Program-made: the position numbers and the translations under genes
Part shown: piece by piece, positions 2,043-62,287 of the stretch
How the letters are laid out: the number at the start of each line of letters is the position of its first letter
Position numbering within the stretch: the first letter of the stretch is position 1
Notes under the pieces: model-generated
Database searches by the model: none
The model's input: only the letters and a program-made list of their open reading frames with translations
What the model was told of the DNA's origin: nothing
Source: Corynebacterium vitaeruminis DSM 20294
GTDB lineage: Bacteria > Actinomycetota > Actinomycetes > Mycobacteriales > Mycobacteriaceae
Assembly (NCBI RefSeq): GCF_000550805.1
Contig: NZ_CP004353.1
Location: 1,550,001 to 1,614,000 of the forward strand
DNA: 64,000 nt
Direction of reading: 5' to 3'

Positions 2043-2410
2043 GGTGAGTTCCTTTGACAATCGAGTGATTCAACGACCTAGGTGGTTCTGGTTCAAGGCT
2101 AGCCACGCAAAAGCCCTCGCCGCCACGAAAATCTTCTAGGTATCTACCTGCATATCTACAGGTTGAACGATGAAGTAAGGGCACCTGCGGGTTCTATAGG
2201 CCTAGAGGTATTACCACGCCCCCGCGCGCCTGCCCCTACCGCAAGACTAGCCCCTTTCGGGGGAACTAAGCCCTGCTCGGCCGGGTTTCATTCGCTCGGA
2301 GGTGGTCGCCCCGGTCACTCGCGCCCTTTCCCGGGGAAAGGCAAAGCGCCCACCCCACGAACGTGAGGCAGGCGCCGTAGGCGTCGACAAGCAACGCGAA
2401 AAGCACGCCG
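2043..2410. other. Intergenic region between aspA and the dcu gene
   Basis: About 370 bp without a convincing gene. The right part lies downstream of the transporter and contains a small CCCC/GGGG hairpin (about 2250-2262), a CCTCACG/CGTGGGG hairpin (about 2356-2371) and a dispersed-repeat copy. The left part should hold the aspA promoter and includes an inverted repeat ACCTG-N8-CAGGT near 2145-2162 that could be a regulator site; no regulator can be named. Confidence 0.5.
2374..2392 (-). repeat. Dispersed repeat, copy 1
   Basis: GCCGTAGGCGTCGACAAGC, the full consensus, followed by GAAAAG a few bases later. It lies directly downstream of the dicarboxylate transporter stop codon. Confidence 0.75.
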
Positions 2411-3718
2411 CTAGACCAAGACGGAGCCGAAGAGGAAGCCGAGCGCGACGGCGATCGCGATGCAGACGGTGCCCGGAATGATGAATGGGTGATTGAACAC
2501 GGCCTTGCCGATGCGGGTCGATCCGGTGTCGTCCATCTCGACCGCGGCCAGCAGGGTCGGGTAGGTCGGCAGGATGAACAGCGCGCACACGGCCGGGAAG
2601 GAGGCGACGGCGGTCAGCGGGGACACGCCGATGGCGAGGGCCGCCGGGATGAGCGCCTTCGCGGTGGCCGCCTGCGAGTACAGGAGCGCGGACGCGAAGA
2701 AGAGGACGACGGCGAGCATCCACGGGTAGCTGCCGAGCAGGTCGGAGGAGAAGTTCTTGATGGGATCGAGGTAGTTGTTGATGAGCGAGGTGCCCAGCCA
2801 CGCAACACCGAGGACACAGATAGAGGCGGACATGCCGGAGCGGAACACCTGCGTGGTGAGGATTTCGTTGGCGGGAATCTTGCAGAAGACCACGATCGCG
2901 GTCGCGGCGGTGAGCATGACGGTCATGATCGCCTCGTTGCGCGGCAGCGTCGGGTCCGAAATGAGCCCCAGCTGGTCCGAGATGAGGGTCGCGTAGATCA
3001 TGACCGCGAGGATCGCGATGAGGAAGATGAGCACCGAGCGCTTGGCCTCCTTGGTCGCGGTGTACTCGCGCTGGCCCTTCGGCGGCTCGATGACGCCCTG
3101 GGCCAGGCGCTCCTGGTAGACCGGGTCGTCTTTCAGCTCCTTGCCCATGTGGCTGGCGAGCCAGGCGGTCGGGAAGATGGCGAGGAAGGTGGCCGGGATG
3201 ACCACGAGCAGCAGGTTGAGGTAGCCCACGCCGAGCGGCTCGACGGTCGCCGCCATGAAGACGACGGCCGCGGAGATCGGCGAGGCACAGATCGCCAGCT
3301 GCGAGGCGACGACGGCGACGGAGAGCGGGCGCGAGGGGCGCACGCCGGACTCCTTGGCCACCTCGACGATGACCGGCAGCGTGGAGAAGGCGGTGTGGCC
3401 GGTGCCTGCGAAGAGCGTCATAAGGTAGGTGACCACCGGCGCGAGATACGTGATGTGCTTCGGGTTGCGCCGCAGGACGCGCTCGGCGAGGTTGACCAGG
3501 TAGTCGAGGCCGCCCGCGCGTTGCATCGCGGAAATCGCCGCGATGACGGTCATGATGATGCCGATGACGTCGAACGGGATGGCGTCGAATTCGATGGGAA
3601 CGCCGGTCAGTCCCAGCAAGAGTACGCCCATGCCGCCCGCCAAACCGATAGCGATGGAGCCGAGGCGCGCGCCCAAGATGATCGCCCCGAGGACGATGAG
3701 GATGTGGACGATGGCCAT
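2411..3718 (-). CDS. Anaerobic C4-dicarboxylate transporter, Dcu family
   Basis: A 435-residue polytopic membrane protein, the usual Dcu length. It opens with hydrophobic helices rich in Gly and Ala (residues 1-45) and contains the family-like stretch FAGTGHTAFSTLPVIVEVAK, several strongly hydrophobic helices and a hydrophobic C-terminus. DcuA/DcuB proteins exchange fumarate, malate, succinate or aspartate across the cytoplasmic membrane. The gene follows aspA in the same orientation with about 370 bp between, so it probably has its own transcript. AAAGGGAG precedes the ATG at about 9 nt. I cannot separate DcuA from DcuB by eye. Confidence 0.9.
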   Translation of the reverse strand: MAIVHILIVLGAIILGARLGSIAIGLAGGMGVLLLGLTGVPIEFDAIPFDVIGIIMTVIAAISAMQRAGGLDYLVNLAERVLRRNPKHITYLAPVVTYLMTLFAGTGHTAFSTLPVIVEVAKESGVRPSRPLSVAVVASQLAICASPISAAVVFMAATVEPLGVGYLNLLLVVIPATFLAIFPTAWLASHMGKELKDDPVYQERLAQGVIEPPKGQREYTATKEAKRSVLIFLIAILAVMIYATLISDQLGLISDPTLPRNEAIMTVMLTAATAIVVFCKIPANEILTTQVFRSGMSASICVLGVAWLGTSLINNYLDPIKNFSSDLLGSYPWMLAVVLFFASALLYSQAATAKALIPAALAIGVSPLTAVASFPAVCALFILPTYPTLLAAVEMDDTGSTRIGKAVFNHPFIIPGTVCIAIAVALGFLFGSVLV

Positions 3719-3924
3719 GAATATATCTCCCTTTACTAGTATCTATAGGGGGACAGAAATGCGATATTCTGTTGAGGTTACTTCCGAGCTAAGTCTCAAA
3801 AATCCGGAAAATCAACTTTTTCCAACGTAACCAAAAACGCATTTTGTTGATATTCTGTGGCTTTTCCCAAGAAAATGCGCGTGAGGCCGTCATCGTGCAC
3901 GGCGGAGAGTGACCAAACAGACAA

Positions 3925-3954
3925 AACCCTAGGCCCGAATGGGGACCTAGGGTT
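3925..3954 (-). terminator. Terminator downstream of the MBL hydrolase gene
   Basis: Perfect 9-bp stem AACCCTAGG/CCTAGGGTT with a 12-nt loop, followed on the minus strand by TTTTGTCTG. The rest of 3719-4009 holds the dcu promoter region and a repeat copy. Confidence 0.8.
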
Positions 3955-3964
3955 CGTGCTTTTG

Positions 3965-3982
3965 GCTTGTCGACGCCTACGG
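3965..3982 (+). repeat. Dispersed repeat, copy 2
   Basis: GCTTGTCGACGCCTACGG between the MBL hydrolase stop codon and its terminator; inverse orientation to copy 1. Confidence 0.7.
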
Positions 3983-4009
3983 TTTGCCGCCTCTTTGCCG
4001 CAGCGGGGA

Positions 4010-4699: not shown

Positions 4700-5809
4700 C
4701 TAGATCTCAACGACCGAACGTAGCACCTTGCCGGTCTTCATGGTGGCGAACGCCGCCTCCACGTCGTCAAGCCCCACGCGCTCGGAGACGAAGTCCTGCA
4801 GCGGGAAGCGGCCCTGGAGGGAAAGATCCACGTACAAGGGGAAGTCGCGCTCGGGCAGGCAGTCGCCGTACCAGGAGGACTTCAGCGATCCGCCGCGGCC
4901 GAAGAAGTCGATCGCCGGCACATCGAAGCGGGCGGTGAGGTTGGGGACGCCGACGAGCACCATGCGCCCTGCCAGGTCGCGGGAGTAGAAGGCCTGGCGG
5001 CTGGTGGCGGGGATGCCGACCGCGTCGATGGCCACGTCGGTGCCGAAGCCGTCGGTGAGCTCGCGGACGGCCTCAATGACCTCCTCCTCGCTCTTGCCCG
5101 CGCCGCAGACGGTGTGGGTGGCGCCGAACTTCGTGGCGGTCTCCAGCTTCTCCGGGTCAAGGTCGACCGCGATGACCTTGGACGCCCCGGCGAGCACCGC
5201 GCCCGCCACGGCCGCCATGCCCACGCCGCCGCAGCCGAACACGGCCACGGACTCGCCGCGCTTGACGTCCGCGGTATTCACGGCGGCGCCGAGGCCCGCC
5301 ATGATGCCGCAGCCCAGGAGACCAGCGGCAGCGGGATCGGCGGCGGGGTTCACCTTGGTGCACTGCCCCTCGTGGACGAGGGTCTTCTCTACGAAGGCGC
5401 CGATGCCCAGCGCCGGGGTCAGCTCCGCTCCTGCGTCCGGGTCCCCCTCGGCGATCGTCATCTTGGCGGAGGCGTTGTGGGTGTTGAAGCAGTACTTCGG
5501 CTCGCCCTTCTTGCAGGCGCGGCACTCGCCGCACACGGCGCGCCAGTTGAGGACGACGAAGTCGCCCACCTCGACGTGGCTCACCTCTGTGCCGATCTTT
5601 TCCACGATGCCAGCCGCCTCGTGGCCTAAGAGGAAGGGAAACTCGTCGGCGATGTCGCCGTCGCGGTAGGCGAGGTCGGTGTGGCACACGCCGCACGCCT
5701 GGACCTTCACCACGACGTCGTGCGCGCCGGGCTCGGGAATGGCGATGCGGACGTTTTCGACGGGTGCTCCCTTTGAGCGGGCGATGATTCCATTAACGAT
5801 TTCGGTCAT
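4700..5809 (-). CDS. mscR: S-(hydroxymethyl)mycothiol dehydrogenase (zinc-type alcohol dehydrogenase)
   Basis: A 369-residue class III-like alcohol dehydrogenase that oxidises the formaldehyde-mycothiol adduct with NAD+. The catalytic-zinc region [14 protein letters not shown] lies near residues 37-50, the structural-zinc cysteines in [15 protein letters not shown], and the Rossmann motif [10 protein letters not shown] around residue 200. The partner MBL hydrolase follows in the same orientation. mshC, needed for mycothiol synthesis, is also in this window. Literature uses adhE, fadH or mscR for this gene in corynebacteria. Start ATG at 5807-5809. Confidence 0.9.
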
Positions 5810-8009: not shown

Positions 8010-8031
8010 GCCGTAGGCGTCGGAAAGCGAA
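8010..8031 (-). repeat. Dispersed repeat, copy 3 (GGA variant)
   Basis: GCCGTAGGCGTCGGAAAGCG followed by AA; it differs from copy 1 in the GGA replacing GAC. It lies about 40 bp upstream of the HAD phosphatase start. Confidence 0.7.
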
Positions 8032-9130: not shown

Positions 9131-9153
9131 TTTCGCTTGTCGACGCCTACGGC
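9131..9153 (-). repeat. Dispersed repeat, copy 4, supplying the stop codon of the P-type ATPase
   Basis: Read on the minus strand: GCCGTAGGCGTCGACAAGCG followed by AAA. The TAG inside GCCGTAGGC is the stop codon of the metal ATPase gene, so the repeat overlaps the coding end. Confidence 0.8.
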
Positions 9154-14895: not shown

Positions 14896-15318
14896 CTAGG
14901 AATCCTCTTCTCCAGCCTCGTGCCATTGCGGCAGCTTGTCGACGTCTACAGCACCGAACCCCACCTCGGCGAGAGCTTCCTTCAGGATGTCCAGGAGATC
15001 TGCCATCTCCTCGTCCTCCACGACGGGAATGGCGCCAGCCTGCTCGTTGAGGCCGTCGATCTCCCGGTAGAACTCGAGGACTAGCGCCCCGGACGCGTCC
15101 GCCGGATCGGCGGGGCCAGCCCCGGCGGCGCGCTCGAGCTCGCCGAGGAGCCTTTCGAACGCCGCGCGCACCTGCGGGAGCAGGCTCGCGTCCATCGTGG
15201 GGTCCCACGAGTCATCTTCGCCGTGGACGTAGCTTCCGGAGGCGAACTCGGTGAGGAACTGAAAGGTCTCGTCGATGCGCGGACGCAGCCTGTCGGCCAG
15301 GGTCTCAGTCACGGTCAT
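14896..15318 (-). CDS. Conserved hypothetical acidic protein
   Basis: About 140 residues, strongly acidic, predicted soluble with no signal peptide or membrane segment. It begins MTVTETLADRLRPRIDETFQ and ends with EAGEEDS. I do not recognise a domain. It lies between metH and mshC on the same strand, 20 bp from the mshC stop, so it may be translationally linked to mshC. An in-frame ATG three codons earlier (15327) is an alternative start. A stretch encoding VDVDKLP happens to resemble the dispersed repeat of this genome. Confidence 0.6.
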   Translation of the reverse strand: MTVTETLADRLRPRIDETFQFLTEFASGSYVHGEDDSWDPTMDASLLPQVRAAFERLLGELERAAGAGPADPADASGALVLEFYREIDGLNEQAGAIPVVEDEEMADLLDILKEALAEVGFGAVDVDKLPQWHEAGEEDS

Positions 15319-15337: not shown

Positions 15338-16591
15338 CTAGGCGATTTTTACACCGAGAAGCGCGTCCACGGCGGTGGCCACGACCGCGCCCGCCTCGCT
15401 GAGCGCCGCGCCCGCCACGTACTCGCTGGCGCCTTCGGCCCAGGCGTCGATGAGCGCCAACGCCCTGGGCGTGTCGAGGTCGTTGGCCAGGCAGGAGCGG
15501 ACCTGCTGCACGAGCAGCTCGGCCTCATCCACGGGGCTGTCCGCGCGTGCGGCCGCGCCCCAGGCGGCGAGCCGGGCCTCGGCGGCGCCGAGCACTTCGT
15601 CGGACCAGTCGCGGGACTTGCGGTAGTGCCCGGCGTAGACGCCCAGTCGGATCGCCGAGGGGTCGTGGCCCTGCTCGGTGAGCTTGGAGACGAACACGAG
15701 GTTGCCCAGCGACTTGCTCATCTTCACGCCGTCGAGCGAGATCATGCCGGTGTGCACGTAGTGCCCGGCCATGCGCTCGCTGCCGTAGGTGGCCTCTGCG
15801 TGGGCGGCGGAGAACTCGTGGTGCGGGAAGATGAGGTCGCTGCCGCCGCCCTGGATGGCGAAGTGGGAGCCCAGGCGGTTGGTGGCGATCGCCGAGCACT
15901 CCACGTGCCACCCGGGGCGTCCCGCGCCGAAGGGGGCGTCCCACCTGGGTTCGCCGGGCCGCGCAGCGCGCCAGATGAGCGCGTCCAGCGGGTCCTTCTT
16001 GCCCGCGCGATCCGGGTCCCCGCCGCGCTCGGCGAAGAACTCCTCCATGAGCGCGCGGGAGTAATTCGACTCGTAACCGAACTGCGAGGTGGCCGTGATG
16101 GAGGCGTAGATGTCCGGGTACTCCGGGTCGTCGACGACGTAGGCCGCACCCTTGTCCAGCAGCGAGCTCACCATCTCGATGACCTCGTCCACGGACTCCA
16201 TCGCGCCGACGTAGTCGCGCGGGGGCAGGACCCCGAGCGCCTCCATGTCGGAGCGGAAGAGGTTGATCTGGCTGGTGCCCAGCTGGCGCCAGTCCACGCC
16301 GTCGCGCTCGGCGCGCTCGAACAGCGGGTCGTCGACGTCGGTGATGTTCTGCACGTAGTGCACCTTGAGACCATTGTCGATCAGCTGGCGCTGGATGAGG
16401 TCGAAGGTGAGGTAGGTGGCCGCGTGGCCCAGGTGGGTGGAGTCGTAGGGCGTGATGCCGCAGACGTAGACCCCGACCTCCTCGCCGGAGACCTCCACGG
16501 GCTTGATGACCTGATCCGCGGTGTCGTACAGGTTGAGCGCGACCGGGGTGCCGGCGACGGCGGGAATGGTTGGGACGGGCCAAGATTGCAT
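15338..16591 (-). CDS. mshC: L-cysteine:1D-myo-inositol 2-amino-2-deoxy-alpha-D-glucopyranoside ligase
   Basis: Catalyses the ATP-dependent addition of cysteine to GlcN-inositol in mycothiol synthesis. The 417-residue protein is a class I cysteinyl-tRNA-synthetase paralogue: the zinc/HIGH region appears as [18 protein letters not shown] (about residues 40-57) and the KMSKS-like loop as KMSKSLGN. It lacks the C-terminal anticodon-binding domain of CysS. The start ATG at 16589-16591 gives the conserved [16 protein letters not shown] lies 7 nt upstream, fitting a leaderless transcript. uppP lies just upstream on the same strand, as in mycobacteria and corynebacteria. Confidence 0.95.
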
Positions 16592-16682
16592 AAGCACTAC
16601 TCTAACCCGTGCCCGAATCCGATGACGATTCAGCCGGGATAGCAAAACGGCCTCCGGGTACCTCGTTGAACGAGGGCCGGAA

Positions 16683-16708
16683 GCCGTAGGCGTCGGAAAG
16701 CGAAAAGC
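16683..16708 (-). repeat. Dispersed repeat, copy 5 (GGA variant)
   Basis: GCCGTAGGCGTCGGAAAGCG followed by AAAAGC, ending directly at the uppP stop codon. Same variant as copy 3. Confidence 0.75.
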
Positions 16709-20862: not shown

Positions 20863-20880
20863 TTCGCTTGTCGACGGCTA
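20863..20880 (+). repeat. Dispersed repeat, copy 6 (degenerate)
   Basis: TTCGCTTGTCGACGGCTA directly after the pyrD stop codon; it matches the reverse of the consensus except near its end. It lies just ahead of the pyrD terminator. Confidence 0.6.
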
Positions 20881-22510: not shown

Positions 22511-23042
22511 TCTGGTACCACCCCCACGCGATGGTGCGCGCGATCGAGTGGAAGTACAGGTTAAAGCCCAAAACGGTACAGGTGGACTCCGGATCAATGT
22601 CCAGCTTGTCGACGTCCACGGCGTGGACCGCAAAAAGATAGCGGTGCGGCCCGTGTCCGGCCGGCGGCTGCGGGCCGTAGAAGGCCTTCATACCGGAGTC
22701 GCCGCGCAGGGTGATGGCGCCGGGGATGCCCGCGTCCTCGGCGGAGCCCGCGCCGGCGGGAAGCTCGGTGACGTCCGCGGGGATGTTGAACACGCCCCAG
22801 TGCCAGAAACCGGAGGCGGTGGGCGCGTCCGGATCGAAGCAGGTCACCGCGATGGACTTGGTGCCCTCGGGCAGCCCGGTCCACTTCAGCTGTGGCGAGA
22901 TGTTGTTCGGCGCGGCGATGTCGTCGGCCAGTCGCTCGCCATCCGCGAAGTCGGTCGACTTTAGCTCAAAGGCGGGCAGATCCTTCAGCGGCGCGTAAGG
23001 ATCCGGCCCCGGGAAACGGCCATCTTCTGCGTAGTTGCTCAT
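22503..23042 (-). CDS. YbhB/YbcL-family (PEBP, Raf-kinase-inhibitor-like) protein
   Basis: A 179-residue soluble protein of the phosphatidylethanolamine-binding family: the core motif FDPDAPTASGFWHWGVFNIPAD in two parts, ligand-pocket GPQPPAGHGPHRY and YLFAVHAVD. It is close in kind to M. tuberculosis Rv2140c, which also lies near pyrD. The role in bacteria is unclear; small-ligand binding is established for the fold. It overlaps the downstream membrane-protein gene by 8 bp. The upstream 236 bp (23043-23278) hold its promoter and that of the tRNA gene on the other strand. Confidence 0.9.
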   Translation of the reverse strand: MSNYAEDGRFPGPDPYAPLKDLPAFELKSTDFADGERLADDIAAPNNISPQLKWTGLPEGTKSIAVTCFDPDAPTASGFWHWGVFNIPADVTELPAGAGSAEDAGIPGAITLRGDSGMKAFYGPQPPAGHGPHRYLFAVHAVDVDKLDIDPESTCTVLGFNLYFHSIARTIAWGWYQND

Positions 23043-23418: not shown

Positions 23419-24852
23419 ATGACTATCGTGACCCCAGCTGGCATCGACCCCGATCGACTTCGAATCGCCCTGAACGTTATTAAGGAGGCTGGTTCACTTC
23501 CCTCCTCGCATCCCGATGCGGTGGCCCTCCATCGCGCGGTTTCCAAGCTGTTTAAGGACGTCAAGCGTAGCCGTCGACAAGCGGCGAAAAGGGCGCGCCA
23601 AGAGGCCGATAAACGGGTCTTGGAGGCGACGGCCACCGCAAACCCCCGCCGCATCGACGATGAGACGGCGGGGCTGCTGATCGCGCCGCTGGGGCAGGAA
23701 CCGGTCGCGCTCGAGGCGGGTGCCGTAGCGACCCCGCACGGGTTCGCGGGCGCGCTGCGGCGCTCGCAGAACTGTTACGTGTGCAAGAAGCCGTACACGC
23801 TGGTCGACAGCTTTCACCACCAGCTGTGCCCGGAGTGCGCCGCTGACAATCGCGCGCGGCGGACGGCGAGGGTCGATCTGACCGGACGGCGGGCACTGCT
23901 TACGGGAGGACGCGCAAAGATCGGCATGTACATCGCGCTCAAGCTGCTGCGCGACGGCTGCGACCTCACGATCACCACCCGCTTCCCCAAGGACGCGGTG
24001 CGCCGATTCGCGGCAGTGGGCGACTCACCTGAGTGGCTGGGGCGCCTCCACGTAGTGGGCATCGACCTGCGCGACCCCGCCCGCGTCGCGGAGCTCGCCG
24101 ACGCGGTCGCGGAACGGCCGCTGGACATCCTCATCAACAACGCGGCGCAGACGGTCAGGCGCAGCGCGGGGGCCTACTCGGGGCTCGTGGCGGCCGAGAC
24201 CGCGCCGCTTGCGGGCATCGAGAACGACGTGCCGCTGCTGGAGCTGGGTAGCCCTCACGAGCGCCATCCGCGGGCGATCTCCTCGGGCGTGCCGAGCCTA
24301 GATGTCGCTCGTCAGGCGCTGACCGCTGGCGGCGAGGTCGACGCCGGCGGCCTCATTCCCGACCTCGTGAGCCACAATTCTTGGGTGGCGAAGGTCGGCG
24401 AGGTGGACCCCGTGGAGATGCTCGAGGTGCAGCTGTGCAACGCCACCGCGCCGTTTATTCTGTTCAACCGCCTGCGCCCAGCGCTGGAGGCCTCGCCCGC
24501 GCGCCGAAAGTACGTGGTCAATGTCTCCGCAATGGAGGGTGTGTTCGGTCGCGGGTACAAGGGGCCCGGACACCCGCACACGAACATGGCCAAGGCGGCG
24601 CTCAACATGCTCACCCGCACGACGGCGACCGAGATGTTCCAGCACGGGGTGCTGGTGACCTCCGTGGATACGGGCTGGATCACGGACGAGCGGCCGCACA
24701 CCACCAAGACCCGGCTGGCGGCCGAAGGTTTTAGGGCGCCACTCGACCTCGTCGACGGTGCGGCGCGGGTCTACGACCCCATCGTGCAGGGTGAGAACGG
24801 AGTTGACCTCTACGGCTGCTTCCTGAAGGACTACCGGCCGCACCCGTGGTGA
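23419..24852 (+). CDS. Zinc-ribbon-containing short-chain dehydrogenase family protein
   Basis: A 477-residue two-part protein. Residues 40-75 are a basic, helical stretch; a CxxC..CxxC zinc ribbon follows (Cys119, Cys122, Cys137, Cys140); then a Rossmann short-chain dehydrogenase domain with the dinucleotide motif TGGRAKIG (162-169), ILINNAAQT and NVSAMEG. At the usual YxxxK site the sequence is TNMAK, so the catalytic Tyr is Thr. An unusual middle segment of about 60 residues interrupts the fold after NNAAQT. Substrate unknown. The GTG at 23428 has better spacing to GAGGA than the ATG at 23419. It follows tRNA-Leu and its terminator. Confidence 0.8.
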   Translation: MTIVTPAGIDPDRLRIALNVIKEAGSLPSSHPDAVALHRAVSKLFKDVKRSRRQAAKRARQEADKRVLEATATANPRRIDDETAGLLIAPLGQEPVALEAGAVATPHGFAGALRRSQNCYVCKKPYTLVDSFHHQLCPECAADNRARRTARVDLTGRRALLTGGRAKIGMYIALKLLRDGCDLTITTRFPKDAVRRFAAVGDSPEWLGRLHVVGIDLRDPARVAELADAVAERPLDILINNAAQTVRRSAGAYSGLVAAETAPLAGIENDVPLLELGSPHERHPRAISSGVPSLDVARQALTAGGEVDAGGLIPDLVSHNSWVAKVGEVDPVEMLEVQLCNATAPFILFNRLRPALEASPARRKYVVNVSAMEGVFGRGYKGPGHPHTNMAKAALNMLTRTTATEMFQHGVLVTSVDTGWITDERPHTTKTRLAAEGFRAPLDLVDGAARVYDPIVQGENGVDLYGCFLKDYRPHPW

Positions 24853-26188: not shown

Positions 26189-26234
26189 GAGCTGGCACTC
26201 CTTTGTGCTTTTCGACGTGCCCACGGCGCCGAGA

Positions 26235-26251
26235 GGCGTCGATAAGCGAAA
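26235..26251 (-). repeat. Dispersed repeat, copy 7 (partial)
   Basis: GGCGTCGATAAGCGAAA in the gap between mutB and meaB; it lacks the GCCGTA half. Confidence 0.55.
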
Positions 26252-28535: not shown

Positions 28536-30347
28536 TTATGCTCCCAACTTCTCAAGCAGGTCGGACAGGGTCTGAGCTGCGTCGATCTTCATGTTGAGGT
28601 AGCCGTCAGCCTCGACGCCGGTGCCCTCGGCACCCGCGAGAAGGACGGTCTCGACGCCGAGCTCGCGCAGCGCGGCCAGCGCCTCGGCGCCGGAGGCTGC
28701 GTACTCCTGGTCGGTGCCGCAGATGACGACGATGGAGGCAGCCTTCGCGGCCTCGGCGAACTCCGGGGTGCCGGGGACGACCTGGCCCGGGTTCAGCGCC
28801 TCGATGCCGCCGGAGGCGAGCAGGTTGGAGGCGAAACCGGTGCGAATGTTGTGCTTGGCCAGCGGGCCGAGCGGGATGAGCGCGATCTGCGGACGGGTGC
28901 CCTTGACCTCGAAGTAGTCGTCGGAGCGGTTGCGCAGGCCCTCGAACTGTGCGGCCCAACGCTTGACGTTGGTCGGCTCGACGCGCAGGTCTTTCGGGAG
29001 CGGCGCCTCGCCCAGGTTCGGGAACTCGTTGATAGCGGTGATCTTGCGCACGCGGTGAGCGATGGCGTCGCGGATCTTCTCGTAGCCAGCCTCGAGCTTC
29101 GAGGTGATCTCGCCGGTTGCGAAGACGGCGGAGAAGCCGCCCTTGGCCTCGACGTCCTGGAAGACCTCCCAGGACTTCTCGATCAGCTGGTTGGTGTACT
29201 GCTCGACGTAGTAGGAGCCGCCGGCCGGGTCGACGACGTGGCCGATGTGGGACTCCTCGAGGAGCAGCAGGTTGGTGTTGCGCGCGATGCGGTGCGCGAA
29301 GGTGCGGGACACACCCGGCAGACCGCCGGGGATAGCCCAGTCGAAGCACAGGACCTCGACGTCGGTGGCGCCGCCGACGCCTGCGGCGAAGGCAGACACG
29401 GTGGAACGCAGCATGTTGACCCAGGCGTCGCGCTGGCTGAACATGGCCGGCGCGGTCAGGGCGTGGATCGGGCAGGAGCCCTTCTCCGGCGCGCCGACGA
29501 TCTCGGCGACGCGGGCCCACAGGGTGCGGGCGGCGCGCAGCTTGGCGATCTGGCCGAACTGGTCGTCGGTGATCGCGTAGCGGAAGGAGAGCTGGTCGAG
29601 CGCCTGCTCGACGGTCAGCCCGGCGTCGGTCAGCCTGCGCAGGTACTCAACGCCCGCGGCCAGGGTGAAGCCGATCTGCTGGGCGTAGGTGCCGCCCTGG
29701 TTGGAGAAGGCCACGCCGTCGACGAGGATGGCGCGGGTGTTCTCGCGGGTGGTGGCCTCCTTGGCCAGCTCGATGGCGGTGTCCAGGTCGCAGGATGCGG
29801 AGCCGTCGACCTGAGAGGTCAGCGGGGACGCGCCCAGCTCAACGCGGGCGGGCGTGGCGCCTTCGGCGTCGACAAGCTTGTACAGCTCTGCCACCTGAGC
29901 CTTGACGTTCTCGCCTGCGTTGAGGCGAACCGGAGCGTACTGGAACAGAACCCCCTTGAGAAGATCCGCCAGCGGGGCGTCGCCGTAGGCGACGATGTCG
30001 GTGGTGCCGTTCTCCAGGGCGGACAGGACCTGGGCGTTGGTGGCGGAGGCACCGAAGGACTCGGTCACGCCCCAGCCGCTGTTGGTAGCGGCGTCCACGC
30101 CCGCGGCGCCGCGGGTGTACGGGAAGCTACCCGGAACCTGCGCCTCAGGAAGTTCGTCCTGGCGGGTGTACAGCGGGTTGACGTCGATCCCGTCGTAGGT
30201 GGTCTTGATTAGTTTGCGCCAAGCGTCAAGCGGGACGTCGGCGACGTCCTTCTTGTGCACTCGCGCGAAGACGCCAGCGACACCCTTGTACCAGGCTTCC
30301 TGTCGCTGGGCGAAGTCTTCAATAAGGGAATTCCGTGCATCACTCAC
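28536..30347 (-). CDS. mutA: Methylmalonyl-CoA mutase, small subunit
   Basis: A 603-residue paralogue of MutB that forms the heterodimer but binds no cobalamin: the DxHxxG motif is absent from its C-terminal domain (GPLAKHNIRTGFASN instead). Conserved barrel segments such as WAIPGGLPGVSRTFAHRIARNTNLLL, split here in thought at residues 370-395, are clear. I chose the GTG at 30345-30347 (VSDARNSLIEDF), preceded by GGGGAG at about 10 nt; a longer in-frame opening reaches 30482 without support. The 220 bp upstream are shared with the divergent membrane-protein gene. Confidence 0.94.
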   Translation of the reverse strand: MSDARNSLIEDFAQRQEAWYKGVAGVFARVHKKDVADVPLDAWRKLIKTTYDGIDVNPLYTRQDELPEAQVPGSFPYTRGAAGVDAATNSGWGVTESFGASATNAQVLSALENGTTDIVAYGDAPLADLLKGVLFQYAPVRLNAGENVKAQVAELYKLVDAEGATPARVELGASPLTSQVDGSASCDLDTAIELAKEATTRENTRAILVDGVAFSNQGGTYAQQIGFTLAAGVEYLRRLTDAGLTVEQALDQLSFRYAITDDQFGQIAKLRAARTLWARVAEIVGAPEKGSCPIHALTAPAMFSQRDAWVNMLRSTVSAFAAGVGGATDVEVLCFDWAIPGGLPGVSRTFAHRIARNTNLLLLEESHIGHVVDPAGGSYYVEQYTNQLIEKSWEVFQDVEAKGGFSAVFATGEITSKLEAGYEKIRDAIAHRVRKITAINEFPNLGEAPLPKDLRVEPTNVKRWAAQFEGLRNRSDDYFEVKGTRPQIALIPLGPLAKHNIRTGFASNLLASGGIEALNPGQVVPGTPEFAEAAKAASIVVICGTDQEYAASGAEALAALRELGVETVLLAGAEGTGVEADGYLNMKIDAAQTLSDLLEKLGA

Positions 30348-30566: not shown

Positions 30567-31280
30567 GTGAGCACCGCCTATGATTTTCTGTTCGGGCTTT
30601 TCAGGTCCGCGTACACCGCCGTTCGTGGGTGGAGCCCTATTCGGAAATTGGTGGCTTTAGCTGCGGTTTTCCTCGGCGTCTACATGCTTTTCGGCTTTGA
30701 CGTCCCCTCGCTTGCGACGCTGCAGCAGTGGTCCCTGCACTTAGGTCCCTGGTTCCCGTTTCTATTCGGCGGGCTGTACGTGCTCGTGGTCCAGTTCCCC
30801 ATTCCGAGAACGTTTTTCACCTTGAGCTCCGGCGTGCTCTTCGGACCGGCGCTCGGCATCACGGTCGCGCTCGTTTCCACCACGGTCGGCGCCGCGTTGT
30901 CGATCAGCATCGTGCGCGCCTTCTTCGGCGAGTGGATCGCGCAGCGCCTCACGCACCCAGCCGTTGCCCGCATCGATCGGCACCTCAAGCAGCGCGGCTG
31001 GCTCGCCGTCGCCTCGCTGCGCATGATCGCGGCCGTCCCGTTTTCCATCCTCAACTACGTCGCCGCGCTCAGCAGCGTGCCTATCCTCAGCTTCACCGTG
31101 GCCACGCTCGTCGGCTCCGCACCCGGCACCATCGCCACCGTCCTGCTCGGTAACACGCTCACCGGCGACATGGATCCGAAGCTGCTTGCGGTCGCATTGA
31201 GTCTTGCGGTGATCGGCTCCGCGGGGTTGCTTATCGACGCCAAGGTCCCCCTCAAGGGTCAAGACTCAAGCATGGATTAG
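30567..31280 (+). CDS. TVP38/TMEM64 (VTT-domain) family membrane protein
   Basis: About 237 residues with five or six hydrophobic segments. The VTT-domain signature is seen as FPIPRTFFTLSSGVLFGP and the later RMIAAVPFSILNYVAAL; these proteins belong to the DedA/VTT lipid scramblase-like group (family knowledge; this member's substrate unknown). The GTG at 30567 lies 8 nt behind TACCCT, fitting a leaderless start; an in-frame TTG at 30525 would put that promoter inside the gene. A homologue is next to mutA in mycobacteria (Rv1491c). Confidence 0.82.
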   Translation: MSTAYDFLFGLFRSAYTAVRGWSPIRKLVALAAVFLGVYMLFGFDVPSLATLQQWSLHLGPWFPFLFGGLYVLVVQFPIPRTFFTLSSGVLFGPALGITVALVSTTVGAALSISIVRAFFGEWIAQRLTHPAVARIDRHLKQRGWLAVASLRMIAAVPFSILNYVAALSSVPILSFTVATLVGSAPGTIATVLLGNTLTGDMDPKLLAVALSLAVIGSAGLLIDAKVPLKGQDSSMD

Positions 31281-33591: not shown

Positions 33592-34434
33592 CTAAATGAG
33601 GTCTTCCTTCTTCAGCTCCGGGGTGGTGACGAAGTCGACGAGCCTTTCGACGGCGCCGATGAGCGTGGAGTCGATGTCGCGGAAGGTGCTGACCGCGCTG
33701 TAGACCCGGTTCCAGCCCTCCTTGGGGTCGCTCCAGCCCACGCGCTTGCAGATACCCGTCTTCCAGTCCTCGCCGTAGGGAACCTCCGGCCACGCGCGCA
33801 AGCCCAGCCGTTCCGGCTTCACCGCCGCCCAGATGTCGATGTAGGGATGGCCGGTGACCAGCACGTCGGGACCGACGGACTCGGTGAGCCGGGTCTCCTT
33901 GGACCCGCGCACGAGGTGGTCCGCCAGCACCCCGATGCGACGGCCGGGGCCCGGCTTGAACTCGGCGAGGCGCTCGGGAAGGTTGTCGAGCCCCTCCAGA
34001 TATTCCACGACGACGCCCTCGACGCGAAGGTCGTGGCCCCAGATCTTCTCCACGATGGCGGCGTCGTGGATGCCCTCCACCCAGATCCGGGAGGGGGCCG
34101 CGACCTTCGCCTCCACCTGCTCCACGCGACGCGACCCGGAGTTGGAGCGCTGGGGCTTGGCCTTGGGCACGAAGCGGGTGAGCGTGACCCGCTCGCCGTC
34201 GATCATGAAGGCGCCCTCGCGGAGTTTGAAGAGCCGCTGGGTACCGTAACGATCCTCCAGCCGGATGAAATCGCCGTCATAGGTCCGCTCGAAACCCACC
34301 ACGGCACCCACGAAGCCGTCGGCAAGCACCTCTGCAACAAGACCCGGCTCGGCTGGGACCTTCGGGTAGGTGGGACGCTGGTTGCGCGCGTGCCCGCTCA
34401 GGATGTCGCCGCCGTAGGGATCGTTGAAGCTCAT
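33592..34434 (-). CDS. DUF3097 family protein
   Basis: A 280-residue cytosolic actinobacterial protein of unknown function. Recognisable DUF3097 features are the start MSFNDPYGGDILSGH, the central IWVEGIHDAAIVEKIWGHDLR with GHDLR, and VLVTGHPYIDIWAAVKPERLG. A homologue (Rv1486c) lies near the same neighbours in M. tuberculosis. The frame stays open far upstream but the ATG at 34432-34434 fits the family start and has TAGGCT 8 nt before it, suggesting a leaderless mRNA. Confidence 0.87.
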   Translation of the reverse strand: MSFNDPYGGDILSGHARNQRPTYPKVPAEPGLVAEVLADGFVGAVVGFERTYDGDFIRLEDRYGTQRLFKLREGAFMIDGERVTLTRFVPKAKPQRSNSGSRRVEQVEAKVAAPSRIWVEGIHDAAIVEKIWGHDLRVEGVVVEYLEGLDNLPERLAEFKPGPGRRIGVLADHLVRGSKETRLTESVGPDVLVTGHPYIDIWAAVKPERLGLRAWPEVPYGEDWKTGICKRVGWSDPKEGWNRVYSAVSTFRDIDSTLIGAVERLVDFVTTPELKKEDLI

Positions 34435-38676: not shown

Positions 38677-38763
38677 TTTTCCCCATGGTATTCATCCGCC
38701 TCTATAGTCACGCCAAACCAACCGTCATGATTGTGGACTTGACTTTGGGATTTACGAGCAAAT

Positions 38764-38781
38764 CCGTAGGCGTCGACAAGC
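38764..38781 (-). repeat. Dispersed repeat, copy 8
   Basis: CCGTAGGCGTCGACAAGC, directly beyond the terminator hairpin of the Rv1476-like gene. Confidence 0.7.
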
Positions 38782-38821: not shown

Positions 38822-39295
38822 TTATCTTCCCATTCGCTTCACGACGACCACGGTGGCCGCCACCGCTGCAACGATGGCCACAAGCGCCAGCGCCACCAAC
38901 GCCCCGCCTGGAACCGGGTCCGCCTCAATGTGATCGACAAGCCCCACCGTCGCCTGCGCATAGTCCGGGTTTGCAAGGAAGTTCCACTGGGCGGACTCAA
39001 TGTCGGCACGGCTGTGGGTCGTGCTCACGATCGCACCGGATCCAGGCGACCGTACGATCACGGTGTCCAGCGCGGTATCCGTACGCAACACCTGTGCAAT
39101 GTCGCGGAGGTCCGCAGTGACCGCCGGATCTTGGTCGAGCACGGCGATGCCGAGCGAACCGAAACCGTGATCCGACGCGTAGGAGACCGACGACTCCAGC
39201 GATTGGCGCAGCCCGCCATTCTCGCTCTGGAGCGCAACCTGCCCCTGCTCCAGCTGCGCGGTAAGCGCGCCCATGTCAACGTTTGCCGGGATCAC
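38822..39295 (-). CDS. Rv1476-family membrane protein
   Basis: A 157-residue protein with a soluble N-terminal alpha/beta domain (LGIAVLDQDPAVTADLRDIAQ, TVIVRSPGSGAIVS) and one C-terminal transmembrane helix (about residues 130-150) ending KRMGR. It sits between ripA and acn exactly as Rv1476 does in M. tuberculosis; function is unknown but the context suggests the envelope. I chose the GTG at 39293-39295 (VIPANVDMGALTAQL); the open frame continues to 39397 without ribosome-binding support. Confidence 0.75.
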   Translation of the reverse strand: MIPANVDMGALTAQLEQGQVALQSENGGLRQSLESSVSYASDHGFGSLGIAVLDQDPAVTADLRDIAQVLRTDTALDTVIVRSPGSGAIVSTTHSRADIESAQWNFLANPDYAQATVGLVDHIEADPVPGGALVALALVAIVAAVAATVVVVKRMGR

Positions 39296-44050: not shown

Positions 44051-44670
44051 CCTGGGCGCGAGCCAGCCCGCCCGAAGCGCTCGTAGGCGCGCAGGTATCT
44101 CCTGGTGAGCAGCTTCTGTCCCAGCCGGGTCAGCGGCGGGCACAGCCTTGCCGCCCACCACCCTGGGGCGGAGACGGCCCTAATCGTCACAGTGACGGTG
44201 TCGTCGGCCCCCAGCGCGATGATGAACGCCTCCTCCCCGGTTTCCACGTGCCTAGGCAGCGTGCCGTACACGAACACGTACTCCGCGCGCGAGCCCGCGA
44301 AAACCGGCAGCTCGACTCGCTCGTTCAGCGCCGCCAGTTCCTCCTGCACGTCGCTTGTCGACGCCCAAGGCGCGCCGTCCGAGGAATAGAGGCGGTCGAC
44401 GAGGATGCTGCAGGGGTTGAGCAGCGGACCAAGCCGCAGCCGAAGCAGGGTCCCCTCCCTGCAGGCCCGCAACCCAGCCGCTCGGTGAACGTCGAAAAGC
44501 CTATGCGCAACCACCAACGAGCGAAACGCCTCGATGCCGCGCCCCACCTCGCGCGAGTAGACGTCTTTGTGCCACCTCCTGCCCGGCACCGCGACGTCCT
44601 CGCCGCGGGCGAGCGCCACGGAGGACAGAAGCAGCCGGTCGGGATAGGTGAGGCTTGAAGGCGTGTGCAC
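44047..44670 (-). CDS. DUF1990 family protein
   Basis: A 207-residue protein of the DUF1990 family, recognisable by VGRGIEAFRSLVVAHRLFDVHRAAG in its pattern (residues 45-70), the strand VFVYGTLPRHVETGEEAF and the C-terminal arginine-rich RRYLRAYERFGRA. Function unknown; the fold may bind lipids or small ligands. The GTG at 44668-44670 has TAGACT 7 nt before it (leaderless). It is convergent with the amidotransferase, sharing the sequence TTAA for both stop codons. Confidence 0.82.
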   Translation of the reverse strand: MHTPSSLTYPDRLLLSSVALARGEDVAVPGRRWHKDVYSREVGRGIEAFRSLVVAHRLFDVHRAAGLRACREGTLLRLRLGPLLNPCSILVDRLYSSDGAPWASTSDVQEELAALNERVELPVFAGSRAEYVFVYGTLPRHVETGEEAFIIALGADDTVTVTIRAVSAPGWWAARLCPPLTRLGQKLLTRRYLRAYERFGRAGSRPG

Positions 44671-44722
44671 TCTCGCCAGTCTATGCGGAAGCGTGGGCTC
44701 CGGTGGCGTAACATGAGAAAAC

Positions 44723-46414: not shown

Positions 46415-47014
46415 CTAGTAGCTGAGCTCTCGTTGCCTTCGCTTGTCGACGCGCTGGCGAAACTTGACCACCATCCAGACAACCGGCGCTAGGACGATAG
46501 CAAGCACCACGAGCACGAGCACGGGGGCGAAGATGGCGGTGGCGGTCAGCGACGCCGCGACGACGTCCTCGGCGGTGGACACCACCGGCGCCCCGAGCCC
46601 CGCTGTTCCCGCGTTGACCGCCGGGCGCGCCGTCGTCTTGAACAGATGCATGGCCAGCGCCACGGCAAAGCCCACCACGAGTAGGACCCACGTCTTCGGC
46701 TCCGAGAACACCGAGCCGCTGCTTACCGTCTCGTCCGCGAAGGCGGAGGCGAACATCAGCCCGCCGGAGGTGGGTCGGATGAGTGTCTGGATGACGTCGT
46801 TGACCGAGTCCACCGCGGGTACCTTGTCGGCGACGATCTCGATGAGCAGAAGCGCCCCCACGATCGACAGCAGGATCGGATCCGTGAGCCACATCCACCC
46901 CTCGGGCAGGCTCACGAAGTCGGTGTACCGAGCGAGCAGCCCGTAGGCAAGCAGCGGAATGTAGGCGTTGAGCCCGGCGGAGGTGGCCAGGCCGATGGCG
47001 GTAGATAAACCCAT
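46415..47014 (-). CDS. DUF4126 family membrane protein
   Basis: A 199-residue protein with four or five hydrophobic segments. The DUF4126 hallmark is the start GLSTAIGLATSAGLNAYIPLL and the motif DKVPAVDSVND; a basic tail ends KRRQRELSY. Function unknown. The coding end contains a degenerate copy of the dispersed repeat (46438-46453). Confidence 0.87.
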   Translation of the reverse strand: MGLSTAIGLATSAGLNAYIPLLAYGLLARYTDFVSLPEGWMWLTDPILLSIVGALLLIEIVADKVPAVDSVNDVIQTLIRPTSGGLMFASAFADETVSSGSVFSEPKTWVLLVVGFAVALAMHLFKTTARPAVNAGTAGLGAPVVSTAEDVVAASLTATAIFAPVLVLVVLAIVLAPVVWMVVKFRQRVDKRRQRELSY

Positions 47015-53882: not shown

Positions 53883-55492
53883 ATATACGAGTCGTTCCAC
53901 AGGTCCTCGTCGCCATCGGGCAGCACGATGACGCGCTCGGGCTCGAGCGCGCGCACGGCGCCGGGATCGTGGGTGACGAGCACGACGGCTCCCTTGTAGG
54001 TGTGCAGGGCCTGGAGGACCTGCTCGCGGGAGACAGGGTCCAAGTTGTTCGTGGGCTCGTCGAGAAGCAGGACGTTGGCGCGGGAGGAGACGAGCGCGGC
54101 GAGCGCGAGGCGGGTCTTCTCACCGCCGGAGAGGGTGCCAGCGGGCTGGTCGAGCTGCTCGCCGGAGAACATGAACGCGCCGAGCAGTCCACGCAGGTCC
54201 TGCTCGCCCGCCTCGGGGCAGGCCTCGATGGTGTTCTCCCACACCGTCTTGTTCGGGTCGATGGTGTCGTGTTCCTGGGCGAAGTAACCGATCTTCAGGC
54301 CGTGGCCGGTGACGATGCCGCCCTCGCCGTCGGTGCGCTCCACGCCAGCGAGAAGCTTGAGCAACGTGGTCTTGCCCGCGCCGTTGAAGCCGAGCACCAC
54401 CACGCGCGAACCCTTGTCCACGGCTAGGTCCACGCCCGCGAAGACCTCGAGCGAGCCGTACATCTTGGTCAGGCCCTTGGCGAATAGCGGGGTCTTGCCA
54501 CAGGGGGCGGGCTCGGGGAAGGTGATGTGGGCGACGTGGTCGGCCACGCGCACCTCGTCGAGGCTATTCATCATGCGGTCGGCGCGCGCGATCATCTGCT
54601 TCGCCGCGGCCGCCTTCGTGGCCTTGGCGCCGAGGCGGGCGGCCTGCTTGCGCAGGGCGTCGGCCTTCTTCTCGGCGTTGGCACGCTCGCGGCGGCGGCG
54701 GGCCTCGTCGGTGGCGCGAGCGTCCTTGTACTTGGCAAAGCCCATGTTGTACACGTCGGCCTCGGCGCGCACGGCGTCGAGGAACCAGACTTTGTTGCAC
54801 ACGGCGTCGAGAAGCTCGACGTCGTGGGAGATCATGATGAGGCCGCCCTCGTGCTTCTTGAGGAAGTCGCGCAGCCACGTGATCGAGTCGGCGTCGAGGT
54901 GGTTCGTCGGCTCGTCGAGCAGCAGGGTCGTCTGCGACTTGCCGGAACCGGCCGAGGCGGCGAACAGGATCTGCGCGAGCTCCACGCGGCGGCGCTGGCC
55001 ACCGGAGAGGGTCTTCAGCGGCTGGTCGAGGATGCGCTCGGGAAGGCCCAGGTTGTCGCAGATCTGAGCACACTCGCTCGCGGCCTCGTATCCGCCAAGC
55101 TGGTGGTAGCGCTCCTCCAGGCGGGAGTACTTCTTGATCGCCTGGTTGCGCTTGCGCTCGTCCTCGGTGGTCTCCATAATCTCCTGCTGGCGCTCCATAT
55201 TGCGCATGATGGAGTCCAGGCCGCGGGCAGAAAGCACGCGATCGCGCGCGGACTGCTCGATGTTGCCCTCGCGGGAGTCCTGCGGCAGGTAGCCGATGTC
55301 GCCGGAGCGGGTCACGGATCCGCCGTAGGGCTCGGTCTCCCCCGCCAGGATGCGCATGGTCGTGGTCTTGCCCGCGCCGTTTCGACCAACGAGCCCGATG
55401 CGGTCGCCCGGCTGCACGCGAAGGTGCTGGCCAGGGGCATTAAGCAGGGTTCGGGCGCCGACGCGCACTTCAAAGTCGTTGGTCACAATCAC
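53861..55492 (-). CDS. ABC-F family ATPase
   Basis: A 543-residue soluble twin-ABC protein that acts on ribosomes rather than transport. Two Walker A motifs, GRNGAGKTTT (about residue 37) and GFNGAGKTTL (about 355), two signature motifs LSGGQRRRVELA and LSGGEKTRLALA, and LLLDEPTNHLD/LLLDEPTNNLD; an ABC-F linker rich in Arg, Lys and Ala lies between. Homologous to Rv1473, which also neighbours the suf cluster. The start is a GTG (MIVTNDFEVRVG). Its 3' end is the attachment site of the adjacent element, which restores the coding end. Confidence 0.93.
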   Translation of the reverse strand: MIVTNDFEVRVGARTLLNAPGQHLRVQPGDRIGLVGRNGAGKTTTMRILAGETEPYGGSVTRSGDIGYLPQDSREGNIEQSARDRVLSARGLDSIMRNMERQQEIMETTEDERKRNQAIKKYSRLEERYHQLGGYEAASECAQICDNLGLPERILDQPLKTLSGGQRRRVELAQILFAASAGSGKSQTTLLLDEPTNHLDADSITWLRDFLKKHEGGLIMISHDVELLDAVCNKVWFLDAVRAEADVYNMGFAKYKDARATDEARRRRERANAEKKADALRKQAARLGAKATKAAAAKQMIARADRMMNSLDEVRVADHVAHITFPEPAPCGKTPLFAKGLTKMYGSLEVFAGVDLAVDKGSRVVVLGFNGAGKTTLLKLLAGVERTDGEGGIVTGHGLKIGYFAQEHDTIDPNKTVWENTIEACPEAGEQDLRGLLGAFMFSGEQLDQPAGTLSGGEKTRLALAALVSSRANVLLLDEPTNNLDPVSREQVLQALHTYKGAVVLVTHDPGAVRALEPERVIVLPDGDEDLWNDSYMEIVELA

Positions 55493-55517: not shown

Positions 55518-55572
55518 TTTTCGCTTATCGACGCCCAAAGGTTCCTAGCCGATAGGCGTCGAGAAGCGAAAA
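55518..55572 (-). terminator. suf operon terminator made of two inverted dispersed-repeat copies
   Basis: TTTTCGCTTATCGACGCC (55518-55535) pairs with GGCGTCGAGAAGCGAAAA (55555-55572), 17 of 18 bp, loop of 19 nt. Both arms are copies of the dispersed repeat. The arms end in A/T runs, giving a terminator on either strand. Confidence 0.88.
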
Positions 55573-56463: not shown

Positions 56464-57822
<1,359 letters not shown>

Positions 57823-61256: not shown

Positions 61257-61974
61257 GAACCGCTCCTTTCTTCGGGAGGTGTGGGTGAGTTTTCACTATC
61301 GAGGTGATGGGGATGTTCGTCGTGCAGATGCCGTGCCCGTCCGCGATCGAGGCCAACGGCTGGACGTGGTGGCCCAGCAGGCTGGCGATGACCTCGTGTT
61401 CCGCCTCGCAGAGCTCGGGGAACTCCGCCGCCACGCCCGCGATCGGGCAGTGGTGCTGGCAGATCTGGACGCCCTGACCGGCATTGGTGACGGTGGCCGC
61501 GTAACCGTTCTTGCTGAACGCGTCTACCACCGCCTGCGCCGCCTTTTCCAGGGACTCTGCATCCTCGTCGCTTGGGGTCTCCACTCCGGACACGATGTCG
61601 GCGGCGCGCTTGCGGGCAAACGCCATGACTGCCTCGTCCCCGCCGGTCTCCCGGAGGGTGGACAGCGCCTGCGCCGCCAGCGAGTCGTAGTTGTGGCCGA
61701 ACTGGCCGCGACCGTGCTCGGTGAGCCGGAAGGATTTGGCCGGTCGACCCCGGGAGCGGTCCCCCGCCGACCTGCGGGCGGGCGCGATCTCCGCGCTGCC
61801 CTCATCGACGAGGTTGTCGAGGTGCCTGCGAATTCCGGTGGCGGAAAGACCCAGGATGTGCCCGAGCTCCGTGGCTGACAGCGCGCCCTTCTGGAGCAGC
61901 AGCTCCATGATCTGCCTGCGGGTTTCGCCGTCGGTGGACCGGGTATCGCTCAAGCCGTGATGCGTCTGGGACAT
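61237..61974 (-). CDS. sufR: SufR, iron-sulfur-sensing repressor of the suf operon
   Basis: A 245-residue DNA-binding protein. The N-terminal winged HTH is seen at [20 protein letters not shown] and [13 protein letters not shown] (about 15-50); the C-terminal cluster ligands are in CQHHCPIAG and ELCEAEH. SufR with a [4Fe-4S] cluster represses the operon. AGGAGG lies about 10 nt before the ATG at 61972-61974; longer in-frame starts would place the RBS inside the gene. A palindrome at 62021-62032 may be its operator. Confidence 0.93.
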
Positions 61975-62020
61975 GTGGGTTCTCACCTCCTGCATTACTA
62001 CAGTCCTTACACCTTTAGAC

Positions 62021-62032
62021 AACACTAGTGTT
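62021..62032. promoter_or_regulatory. Palindrome upstream of sufR, possible operator
   Basis: AACACTAGTGTT, 47 bp upstream of the sufR ATG. The ACACT half resembles what is reported for mycobacterial SufR (ACACT-N5-TGTGA); the match is partial. Confidence 0.5.
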
Positions 62033-62157
62033 CCTTAATTCTATTCCCGCTATCAACCCCCCGTTTGCGCGAGTTTTTCTCCCGCCGGCACACTCTTGCC
62101 CGTTTAAACGATGTTCAGCCTGCTCATCACAGGCATCTCGTGGTTGTTTTTGCATTT

Positions 62158-62176
62158 GCTTTCCGACGCCTTCGGC
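62158..62176 (+). repeat. Dispersed repeat, copy 9 (GGA variant, reverse)
   Basis: GCTTTCCGACGCCTTCGGC, and a second partial copy GCCGTCGACAAGC at 62219-62231, both in the gap between sufR and mptB. Confidence 0.55.
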
Positions 62177-62287
62177 CCAGGTCCCCGTTTCCAACATGAA
62201 CGGGCACTGCCCGCCATGGCCGTCGACAAGCAGGCGCGGGCGAGGCGTCGCCCTATTAGAAAGGGCCCCTGTCTAGACTGTCTATTT

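Follow-up and report, generated by a model that had tools for sequence, protein, structure and literature searches.

The stretch of DNA considered here, referred to as the window, comprises 64,000 nucleotides of Corynebacterium vitaeruminis DSM 20294 (positions 1,550,001-1,614,000 of a one-contig genome with 2,931,780 bases). Dispersed through it is a short bipartite word, CGTCG-NN-AAGC (the core), in which NN stands for two variable bases and which is often preceded by a mini-hairpin. The window holds 28 exact copies of the core, listed below. Gene positions here and throughout come from a home-made gene finder, and individual assignments are rough; CDS denotes a coding sequence and ORF an open reading frame.

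29..39, + strand: core CGTCG-GA-AAGC, antisense within a predicted CDS
2374..2392, + strand: GCC-GTA-GGC mini-hairpin and core (2382-2392), intergenic, 18 bp beyond a stop codon
3965..3983, - strand: ACC-GTA-GG hairpin and core (3965-3975), intergenic
4762..4772, + strand: core with NN = TC in a predicted CDS; this NN is rare, and the copy may be due to chance
8010..8028, + strand: GCC-GTA-GGC hairpin and core with NN = GA (8018-8028), intergenic by the gene finder
9135..9153, - strand: GCC-GTA-GGC hairpin and core with NN = AC (9135-9145), between convergent genes
14934..14952, - strand: GCTGTAGA and core, sense within a predicted CDS
16683..16701, + strand: GCC-GTA-GGC hairpin and core with NN = GA (16691-16701), 7 bp beyond a stop codon
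20866..20884, - strand: GCTTTAGC and core (20866-20876), directly after the stop codon of pyrD (19747-20862)
22604..22622, - strand: core, sense within a predicted CDS
23564..23582, + strand: GC-GTA-GC hairpin and core (23572-23582), intergenic by the gene finder but within a longer ORF (23419-24852)
26207..26217, - strand: core with NN = AA, forming a divergent pair with 26237-26247
26237..26247, + strand: core with NN = AT after a CC-GAGA-GG hairpin, forming a divergent pair with 26207-26217
29859..29877, + strand: GCC-TTC-GGC and core, antisense within a CDS like that of a methylmalonyl-CoA mutase subunit
31229..31239, - strand: core with NN = AT in a predicted CDS
34317..34327, + strand: core with NN = GC in a predicted CDS
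38763..38781, + strand: TCC-GTA-GG hairpin and core (38771-38781), intergenic
38836..38846, - strand: core with NN = TG in a predicted CDS; this NN is rare, and the copy may be due to chance
44353..44371, - strand: GCC-TTG-GGC and core (44353-44363), intergenic by the gene finder but within a longer ORF (44047-44811) and probably coding
44490..44500, + strand: core with NN = AA, within the ORF 44047-44811
46441..46451, - strand: core with NN = AC, sense within a predicted CDS
54058..54068, + strand: core with NN = AG in a predicted CDS
54805..54815, + strand: core with NN = AG in a predicted CDS
55523..55533, - strand: core with NN = AT, forming a divergent pair with 55557-55567
55557..55567, + strand: core with NN = AG after a CC-GATA-GG hairpin, the partner of 55523-55533
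57790..57800, + strand: core after a GC-GAA-GC hairpin, intergenic by the gene finder
62158..62176, - strand: GCC-GAA-GGC hairpin and core with NN = GA (62158-62168), intergenic
62213..62231, + strand: GCCATGGC and core (62221-62231), divergent from 62158-62168

An earlier reading of the window from its letters alone (the sequence-only reading) had described a dispersed repeat of about 20 bp with two subtypes, present in both orientations, also seen inside coding regions, and too frequent for chance. The repeat is real, as every location named there carries the core. The paired copies placed at 55518/55549 and the supposed fragments at 57789 and 62219 are exact cores at 55523-55533/55557-55567, 57790-57800 and 62221-62231, and the similar sequences within coding regions are exact cores at 44353-44363 (- strand), 46441-46451 (- strand) and 23572-23582 (+ strand). 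Allowing at most three mismatches, GCCGTAGGCGTCGRMAAGC matched 16 times in the window against 0.17 expected from shuffled sequence (highest shuffle, 2) and 568 times in the genome (290 forward and 278 reverse), where the reversed pattern matched 3 times; chance is thus an insufficient explanation, both orientations are confirmed, and the element is genome-wide, at counts far above the control, rather than restricted to this segment. The proposed unit of about 20 bp was too long, as the fixed part is the shorter CGTCG-NN-AAGC and the GCCGTAG part forms a mini-hairpin, itself variable, immediately 5' of the core, and the two subtypes turned out to be several: among 374 copies, NN was AC in 137, AT in 43, GA in 42, GC in 41, AA in 38 and AG in 34, with others rarer.

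These 374 copies were found in 864 kb of this genome, an extension of an initial 464-kb sample made up of the window and 20 evenly spaced stretches, where 27 were expected under an order-4 Markov model. Some scripts skipped copies near stretch ends and the allowed NN differed between them, so that the totals given here vary (374, 362, 304 and 150). The density amounts to about 400 copies per Mb, and the subset CGTCGRHAAGC occurs 1171 times in the 2.93 Mb of the genome (594 and 577 by orientation) against 28 for the reversed word. The core is nearly all-or-none: the 27 one-mismatch words, pooled over the 864 kb, were observed 656 times with 603 expected, and enrichment was seen only at the 2-nt spacing, the other spacings from 0 to 6 nt giving 4 to 39 copies. 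Exceptions are CGTCG-NN-GAGC (175 versus 90 expected) and CGTCG-NN-CAGC (81 versus 63), which in coding copies differ from the word by a synonymous change of the CTT leucine codon. Downstream of the core, a weak A-richness is seen in this species. As a separate observation, AAGTCGTTGCA is likewise strongly over-represented in the 464-kb sample (AGTCGTTGCA, 21 versus 0.5 expected).

The mini-hairpin was assessed by shuffling alignment columns, since variable loops blur pair covariation at a fixed loop length. A GC-rich stem (effectively of at least three pairs) was present at 39% of 304 sites, compared with 18% (maximum, 23%) when columns were shuffled. GTA, the commonest loop, occurred with the stems GCC/GGC (34 sites), GGC/GCC (5), GCG/CGC (4) and GGG/CCC (1) and with two of greater length. 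Loops of the GNA or GNNA type, which give unusually stable DNA hairpins, made up 62% of the hairpins at these sites and 4% of hairpins in the genome. Hairpin frequency was alike at coding (57%) and intergenic (61%) copies, with an intergenic control of 19%, and the hairpin was weaker or absent in the four other species examined.

When 362 copies were scored for position, 151 were intergenic, 203 lay within predicted genes and 8 at edges; with 24% of the sequence being intergenic, intergenic copies are commoner than chance, yet more than half of all copies are in predicted CDSs. The sequence-only reading had placed the repeat mostly at gene ends, which holds for the strict consensus within the window but not for the genome. 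Among the 203 coding copies, 177 share one codon phase, xxC GTC GNN AAG Cxx or, in reverse, xxG CTT NNC GAC Gxx. Intergenic copies beside a stop codon have no preferred orientation (40 sense and 43 antisense), and hence the word is not an RNA 3'-end signal. Of two further comparisons that had been proposed, that with the replication strands showed no bias (76 copies leading and 74 lagging among 150 in the 20 stretches, 400 kb, with local GC skew used to assign the leading strand), and that with relatives showed the word at high counts in 105 of 151 Corynebacterium genomes.

In 31 stretches plus the window (684 kb, with the nearly empty stretches described below and their flanks, L032, L036, L174, L175 and L177-L181, being dropped), adjacent copies alternated in orientation, with 174 opposite and 78 same-orientation neighbors where 134±8 opposite ones were expected. 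This alternation arises because same-orientation pairs are depleted within 1.5 kb (27 versus 79.5 expected), while opposite pairs were near expectation (99 versus 88.6). Pairs at most 60 bp apart numbered 9 versus 6.8 expected, all nine in opposite orientation. In this species, the effect of a copy thus seems to be confined to one direction or strand, a second copy nearby adding little. In eight other species pooled, same-orientation pairs numbered 142 versus 172 (z, -2.4) and opposite pairs 220 versus 183 (z, +3.0), and several of these species show no such trend singly.

The word is nearly absent from one prophage and one island of this genome. Two of the 20 evenly spaced stretches, which had not been picked for low copy number, held 0 and 1 copies (L032 and L036), and gene content was inspected in these two: L032 (186-206 kb) encodes phage portal, scaffold, head and tail proteins, and L036 (770-790 kb) encodes an MmeI-type methyltransferase, a ResIII helicase and a mutator-type transposase. 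Followed outward to where copies resume, which makes the exact sizes partly circular, the prophage stretch spans 176-221 kb with 1 copy per 45 kb and the island stretch 695-790 kb (L177-L180 and L036) with 1 copy per 95 kb, and the flanking 5-kb bins hold 1 to 6 copies. The 95-kb island stretch is mostly lower in GC. The portal protein of the prophage (L032 and neighbors, at about 176-221 kb) is 100% identical to that of phages of C. vitaeruminis CAG1 and to that of deposited C. vitaeruminis phages such as Poushou, which itself carries 1 copy per 40 kb; phage Juicebox, whose host is C. xerosis, carries 5 copies per 41 kb, above the expectation of the analysis.

Across 151 Corynebacterium genomes, CGTCGRHAAGC counts are bimodal, with 46 genomes having 4-68 copies and 105 having 152-1458. 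In 120 genomes of the same order from outside the genus (49 other genera), counts were near the reversed control of each genome; the highest ratio noticed was 98 versus 37 (G231) and the highest count 131 versus 128 (G040, 8.9 Mb). Likewise, loci around pyrD held 157 copies per 640 kb in Corynebacterium (32 loci; reversed word, 22) and 44 per 878 kb in other genera (48 loci; control, 41). Within its order, as sampled, the word is thus confined to Corynebacterium. An unsupervised search for spaced words ranked CGTCG--AAGC first in all four of the other positive species sampled, and in seven CGTCG-poor species it ranked CATCG--AAGC first in two (G168 and G006) and fourth in one (G077), with nothing clear in four. 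For G014, G015, G118 and G157, looking de novo for further dialects in 40-60 kb gave nothing clear; this negative is weak, as genome-wide counts showed G118 to use CATCG. In the 151 genomes, CATCGNNAAGC occurs 625-1337 times in eight (G006, G077, G118, G129, G135, G162, G167 and G168); the next count is 213, and the rest are at most about 160. Seven of these eight CATCG-NN-AAGC users contain 16-59 copies of the CGTCG form and G167 contains 171, so that the CG and CA dialects are near-exclusive. G167, with both dialects (1337 CATCG and 171 CGTCG copies), is a possible transitional genome. In G014, which uses neither dialect, a different spaced word, GACGA-N5-ACGA, is in excess in stretches L196-L198 and may be a local repeat.

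In a tree built with FastTree from ComEC, ComEA and HolA of 38 of 40 genomes (G063 and G162 left out; support not shown), the CA users fall within one subclade that also includes the CG users G011 and G004, and the non-users make up one deep clade and a further, small group, with several others standing as single tips between users. G006 (CA) and G004 (CG), the one pair of opposite dialects compared at this depth, were aligned over 113 kb at 79.3% identity. At the 56 CATCG sites of G006, G004 has a perfect CGTCG word at 22 and still CATCG at 2; at the 40 CGTCG sites of G004, G006 has a perfect CATCG word at 22 and still CGTCG at 1; at the remaining aligned sites, other motif bases have been lost. 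Outside the motif, CATCG of G006 (715 places) corresponds to CATCG in 42% and CGTCG in 9% of cases in G004, and CGTCG of G004 (356 places) corresponds in G006 to CGTCG in 24% of cases and to CATCG in 18.5%. A general drift towards CATCG is therefore present but far weaker than the switch within the motif. The eight other fixed bases were retained at 24 of 39 and 24 of 56 sites, compared with 22-26% for similar words. Such a pattern is the trace expected of a genome-wide reader with a changeable taste. When the CG user G087 was compared with its non-user sister G153 (160 kb, 82.3% identity), 7 of 36 ungapped sites were kept, which is below the 29% baseline, and the most often differing base (25 sites) was the wobble base of the CTT codon. 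The more distant G167 shares fewer sites with G006 and G004.

On this evidence, CGTCG-NN-AAGC, or CATCG-NN-AAGC in some species, probably serves Corynebacterium as a signal of its own DNA, and most likely as an uptake signal sequence (USS). We infer both a trans-acting factor that reads the word and its reading during DNA uptake. In such a scheme, a sequence-specific receptor of the DNA uptake route would favor word-bearing fragments, and imported fragments would recombine at their home locus, whereby the word would be copied into resident DNA and spread by drive. Recombination with fragments selected in this way would keep the copies exact, foreign DNA would lack the word, a change in receptor preference would switch all copies together, and orientation would presumably fix which strand or flank is imported. 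The sequence-only reading had offered three guesses, an architectural protein site, an uptake-type sequence and a terminator-forming element, and of these the second fits best with the copy number, the two orientations, the exact core, the scarcity in foreign DNA, the dialects and the switching. This genome has comEA, comEC, dprA and a tad locus, the small DUF4244 protein of which may be the Flp pilin; in Micrococcus luteus, also an actinobacterium, Flp pili are described as required for transformation (PMC4322843).

In most genomic respects tested, the word resembles the DNA uptake sequences (DUS) of Neisseriaceae and the USS of Pasteurellaceae, the two groups, Neisseria and the Pasteurellaceae, to which uptake sequences are described as being unique (PMC3630211). 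Uptake sequences also show an excess of inverted pairs at terminators; for the Corynebacterium word, pairs within 60 bp numbered 9 versus 6.8 expected, all nine in opposite orientation. Like the word, DUS are short and exact, number hundreds to thousands of copies both genic and intergenic, and come in dialects that differ between species, eight in all and in line with phylogeny (PMC3630211). DUS are continuous 10-12-mers, whereas the Corynebacterium word is bipartite and its host actinobacterial; the hairpin before the core is a further difference, and the orientation-dependent spacing seen in Corynebacterium may be another; and for the DUS receptor ComP, a candidate Corynebacterium counterpart was not found. 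The USS of Pasteurellaceae likewise have nine fixed bases, two dialects and a similar density (200-500 per Mb for Apl-USS, within about 200-800 per Mb for USS as quoted in PMC12616744), but the word and the host are others, and the A-richness after the core in this species is weak. No description of the word in Corynebacterium was found among open-licence PMC papers (subscription journals and preprints lie outside that set), in agreement with the sequence-only reading, which had not recognised it from the literature; the accessible text of a spaced-motif survey naming three Corynebacterium species gives only CRISPR-derived pairs for them (PMC5217627). It is close to an even chance, if slightly below it, that this is a third uptake-sequence system, evolved in Corynebacterium and the first beyond two proteobacterial families, which is bipartite, read strand by strand, provided in this species with a single-stranded mini-hairpin and subject to one-base genome-wide dialect flips within a close clade. 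If so, natural transformation with self-recognition would exist in mycolic-acid actinobacteria, a group in which it would so far have been overlooked and whose genus Corynebacterium includes human skin commensals and pathogens; covariation of dialect and protein would be a handle in the search for the receptor, and molecular drive and selection as origins of such words could be tested on CG and CA sister species.

Several points weigh against an uptake signal. ComEC (151 of 151 Corynebacterium genomes), TadA (148 of 151) and the Flp-like DUF4244 protein (148 of 151) occur in users and non-users alike, so that their presence does not account for which genomes carry the word, and no gene discriminating the two groups was found among ComEC, TadA, T2SSF and DUF4244 in the 151 genomes. 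The search of open-licence PMC papers yielded no report of natural transformation in Corynebacterium, and no candidate receptor for the word was found. Both the mini-hairpin and the dependence of spacing on orientation suggest a step on single strands, which classic double-strand uptake recognition does not need, and the spacing effect, strong in the species of the window, is weak in the eight others pooled. Genomes with known USS or DUS contain many near-perfect copies; here these show a small excess at most and are fewer than for USS. The limits of the empty stretches, drawn where copies end, are also partly circular.

Two of the competing explanations likewise take the word to be read on DNA. 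The chief competitor is a Chi-like recombination signal, read on one strand by AdnAB or a similar helicase-nuclease, which would fit the same-strand spacing, the exact match and the absence from phage; like Chi of RecBCD and AddAB, the word is over-represented, its orientation matters and it occurs once per few kb. With roughly one copy every 5 kb in each orientation, it comes near quoted Chi densities (PMC5959072), and adjacent long frames with RecB-type nuclease domains, read from these domains as putative AdnA/AdnB, are present in 39 of 40 genomes (not in G097). However, such AdnAB-like genes occur in users and non-users, including the non-users among users in the tree, so that the word is absent from many genomes that have them. 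When E. coli Chi was put through the same tests (73 sites in 300 kb), it was 1.7-fold over expectation, whereas the Corynebacterium word is 14-fold over expectation under similar models and has one-letter dialects; Chi also had a strand bias of 58 to 15 and no same-orientation depletion (16 versus 18.6 expected). Chi is not known to be enriched between genes or to switch by one letter among close relatives, and we count both traits against this explanation. The lack of replication-strand skew (76 versus 74) is compatible with it, because Chi skew is not universal: according to PMC5959072, it does not reach significance in B. subtilis, S. aureus or H. influenzae, and Pseudomonas lacks it. We consider a Chi-like role unlikely. 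A shade less unlikely is some other DNA-level mark read per strand, such as a priming or restart site, the site of a nucleoid or segregation protein, or a self-mark for a defence nuclease. The GNA/GNNA hairpins 5' of the core (62% versus 4%) suggest recognition of single-stranded DNA, and presence and dialects require only some sequence-specific factor. On the other side, the even replication-strand distribution (76 to 74) argues against polar guides of the FtsK/KOPS type, no candidate factor was found, and four other species have a weaker hairpin or none.

The two remaining explanations fare much worse. A selfish interspersed repeat, of the repetitive extragenic palindrome (REP)/RAYT type or an IS200/IS605 end spread by an HUH transposase, would share with the word the mini-hairpin beside fixed bases, about 1000 copies and an intergenic frequency above chance. 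Hardly any decayed copies were seen, however, 203 of 362 copies lie in predicted CDSs with 177 of them in one codon phase, a base has switched in concert at fixed places, and no Y1_Tnp gene was found in this genome at an E value of 0.001 by a search that was positive in 5 of 14 control genomes; this origin is very improbable. An RNA-level 3'-end or terminator element appears, if anything, more improbable still. Several copies do sit between a stop codon and a terminator, and inverted neighbors could pair, but more than half of the copies are in predicted CDSs, orientation at gene ends is even (40 to 43), close pairs number 9 versus 6.8 expected, no T-rich column follows the core in aligned contexts, and the window has no Rfam match except a tRNA. 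The suggestion of the sequence-only reading that the repeat forms terminators is hence not upheld as a main role.

Returning to the uptake route, two protein features were considered as discriminators of users and non-users and set aside. Of the 46 CG-poor genomes, 28 have a ComEC of at least 650 codons, compared with 13 of the 104 that are CG-rich, a difference confounded by start choice and phylogeny; a short ComEC is also found in several non-users scattered among users, and its length was not used as evidence. Matches to the Tad T2SSF domain (143 of 151 genomes) are weaker or missing in many non-users, but when searched for by TadA, and likewise by the Flp-like protein, the locus turns up in 148 of 151 genomes.

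Two further features were noted in passing. Stretch L046 contains a CRISPR array at 16362-17337, with 15 repeats counted and the repeat ending in CTGCGGGGATGAGCC. In the window, for which the Rfam search returned one tRNA and otherwise no match, positions 24866-24962 hold a 29-bp inverted repeat whose arms are 86% complementary and lie 39 bp apart.

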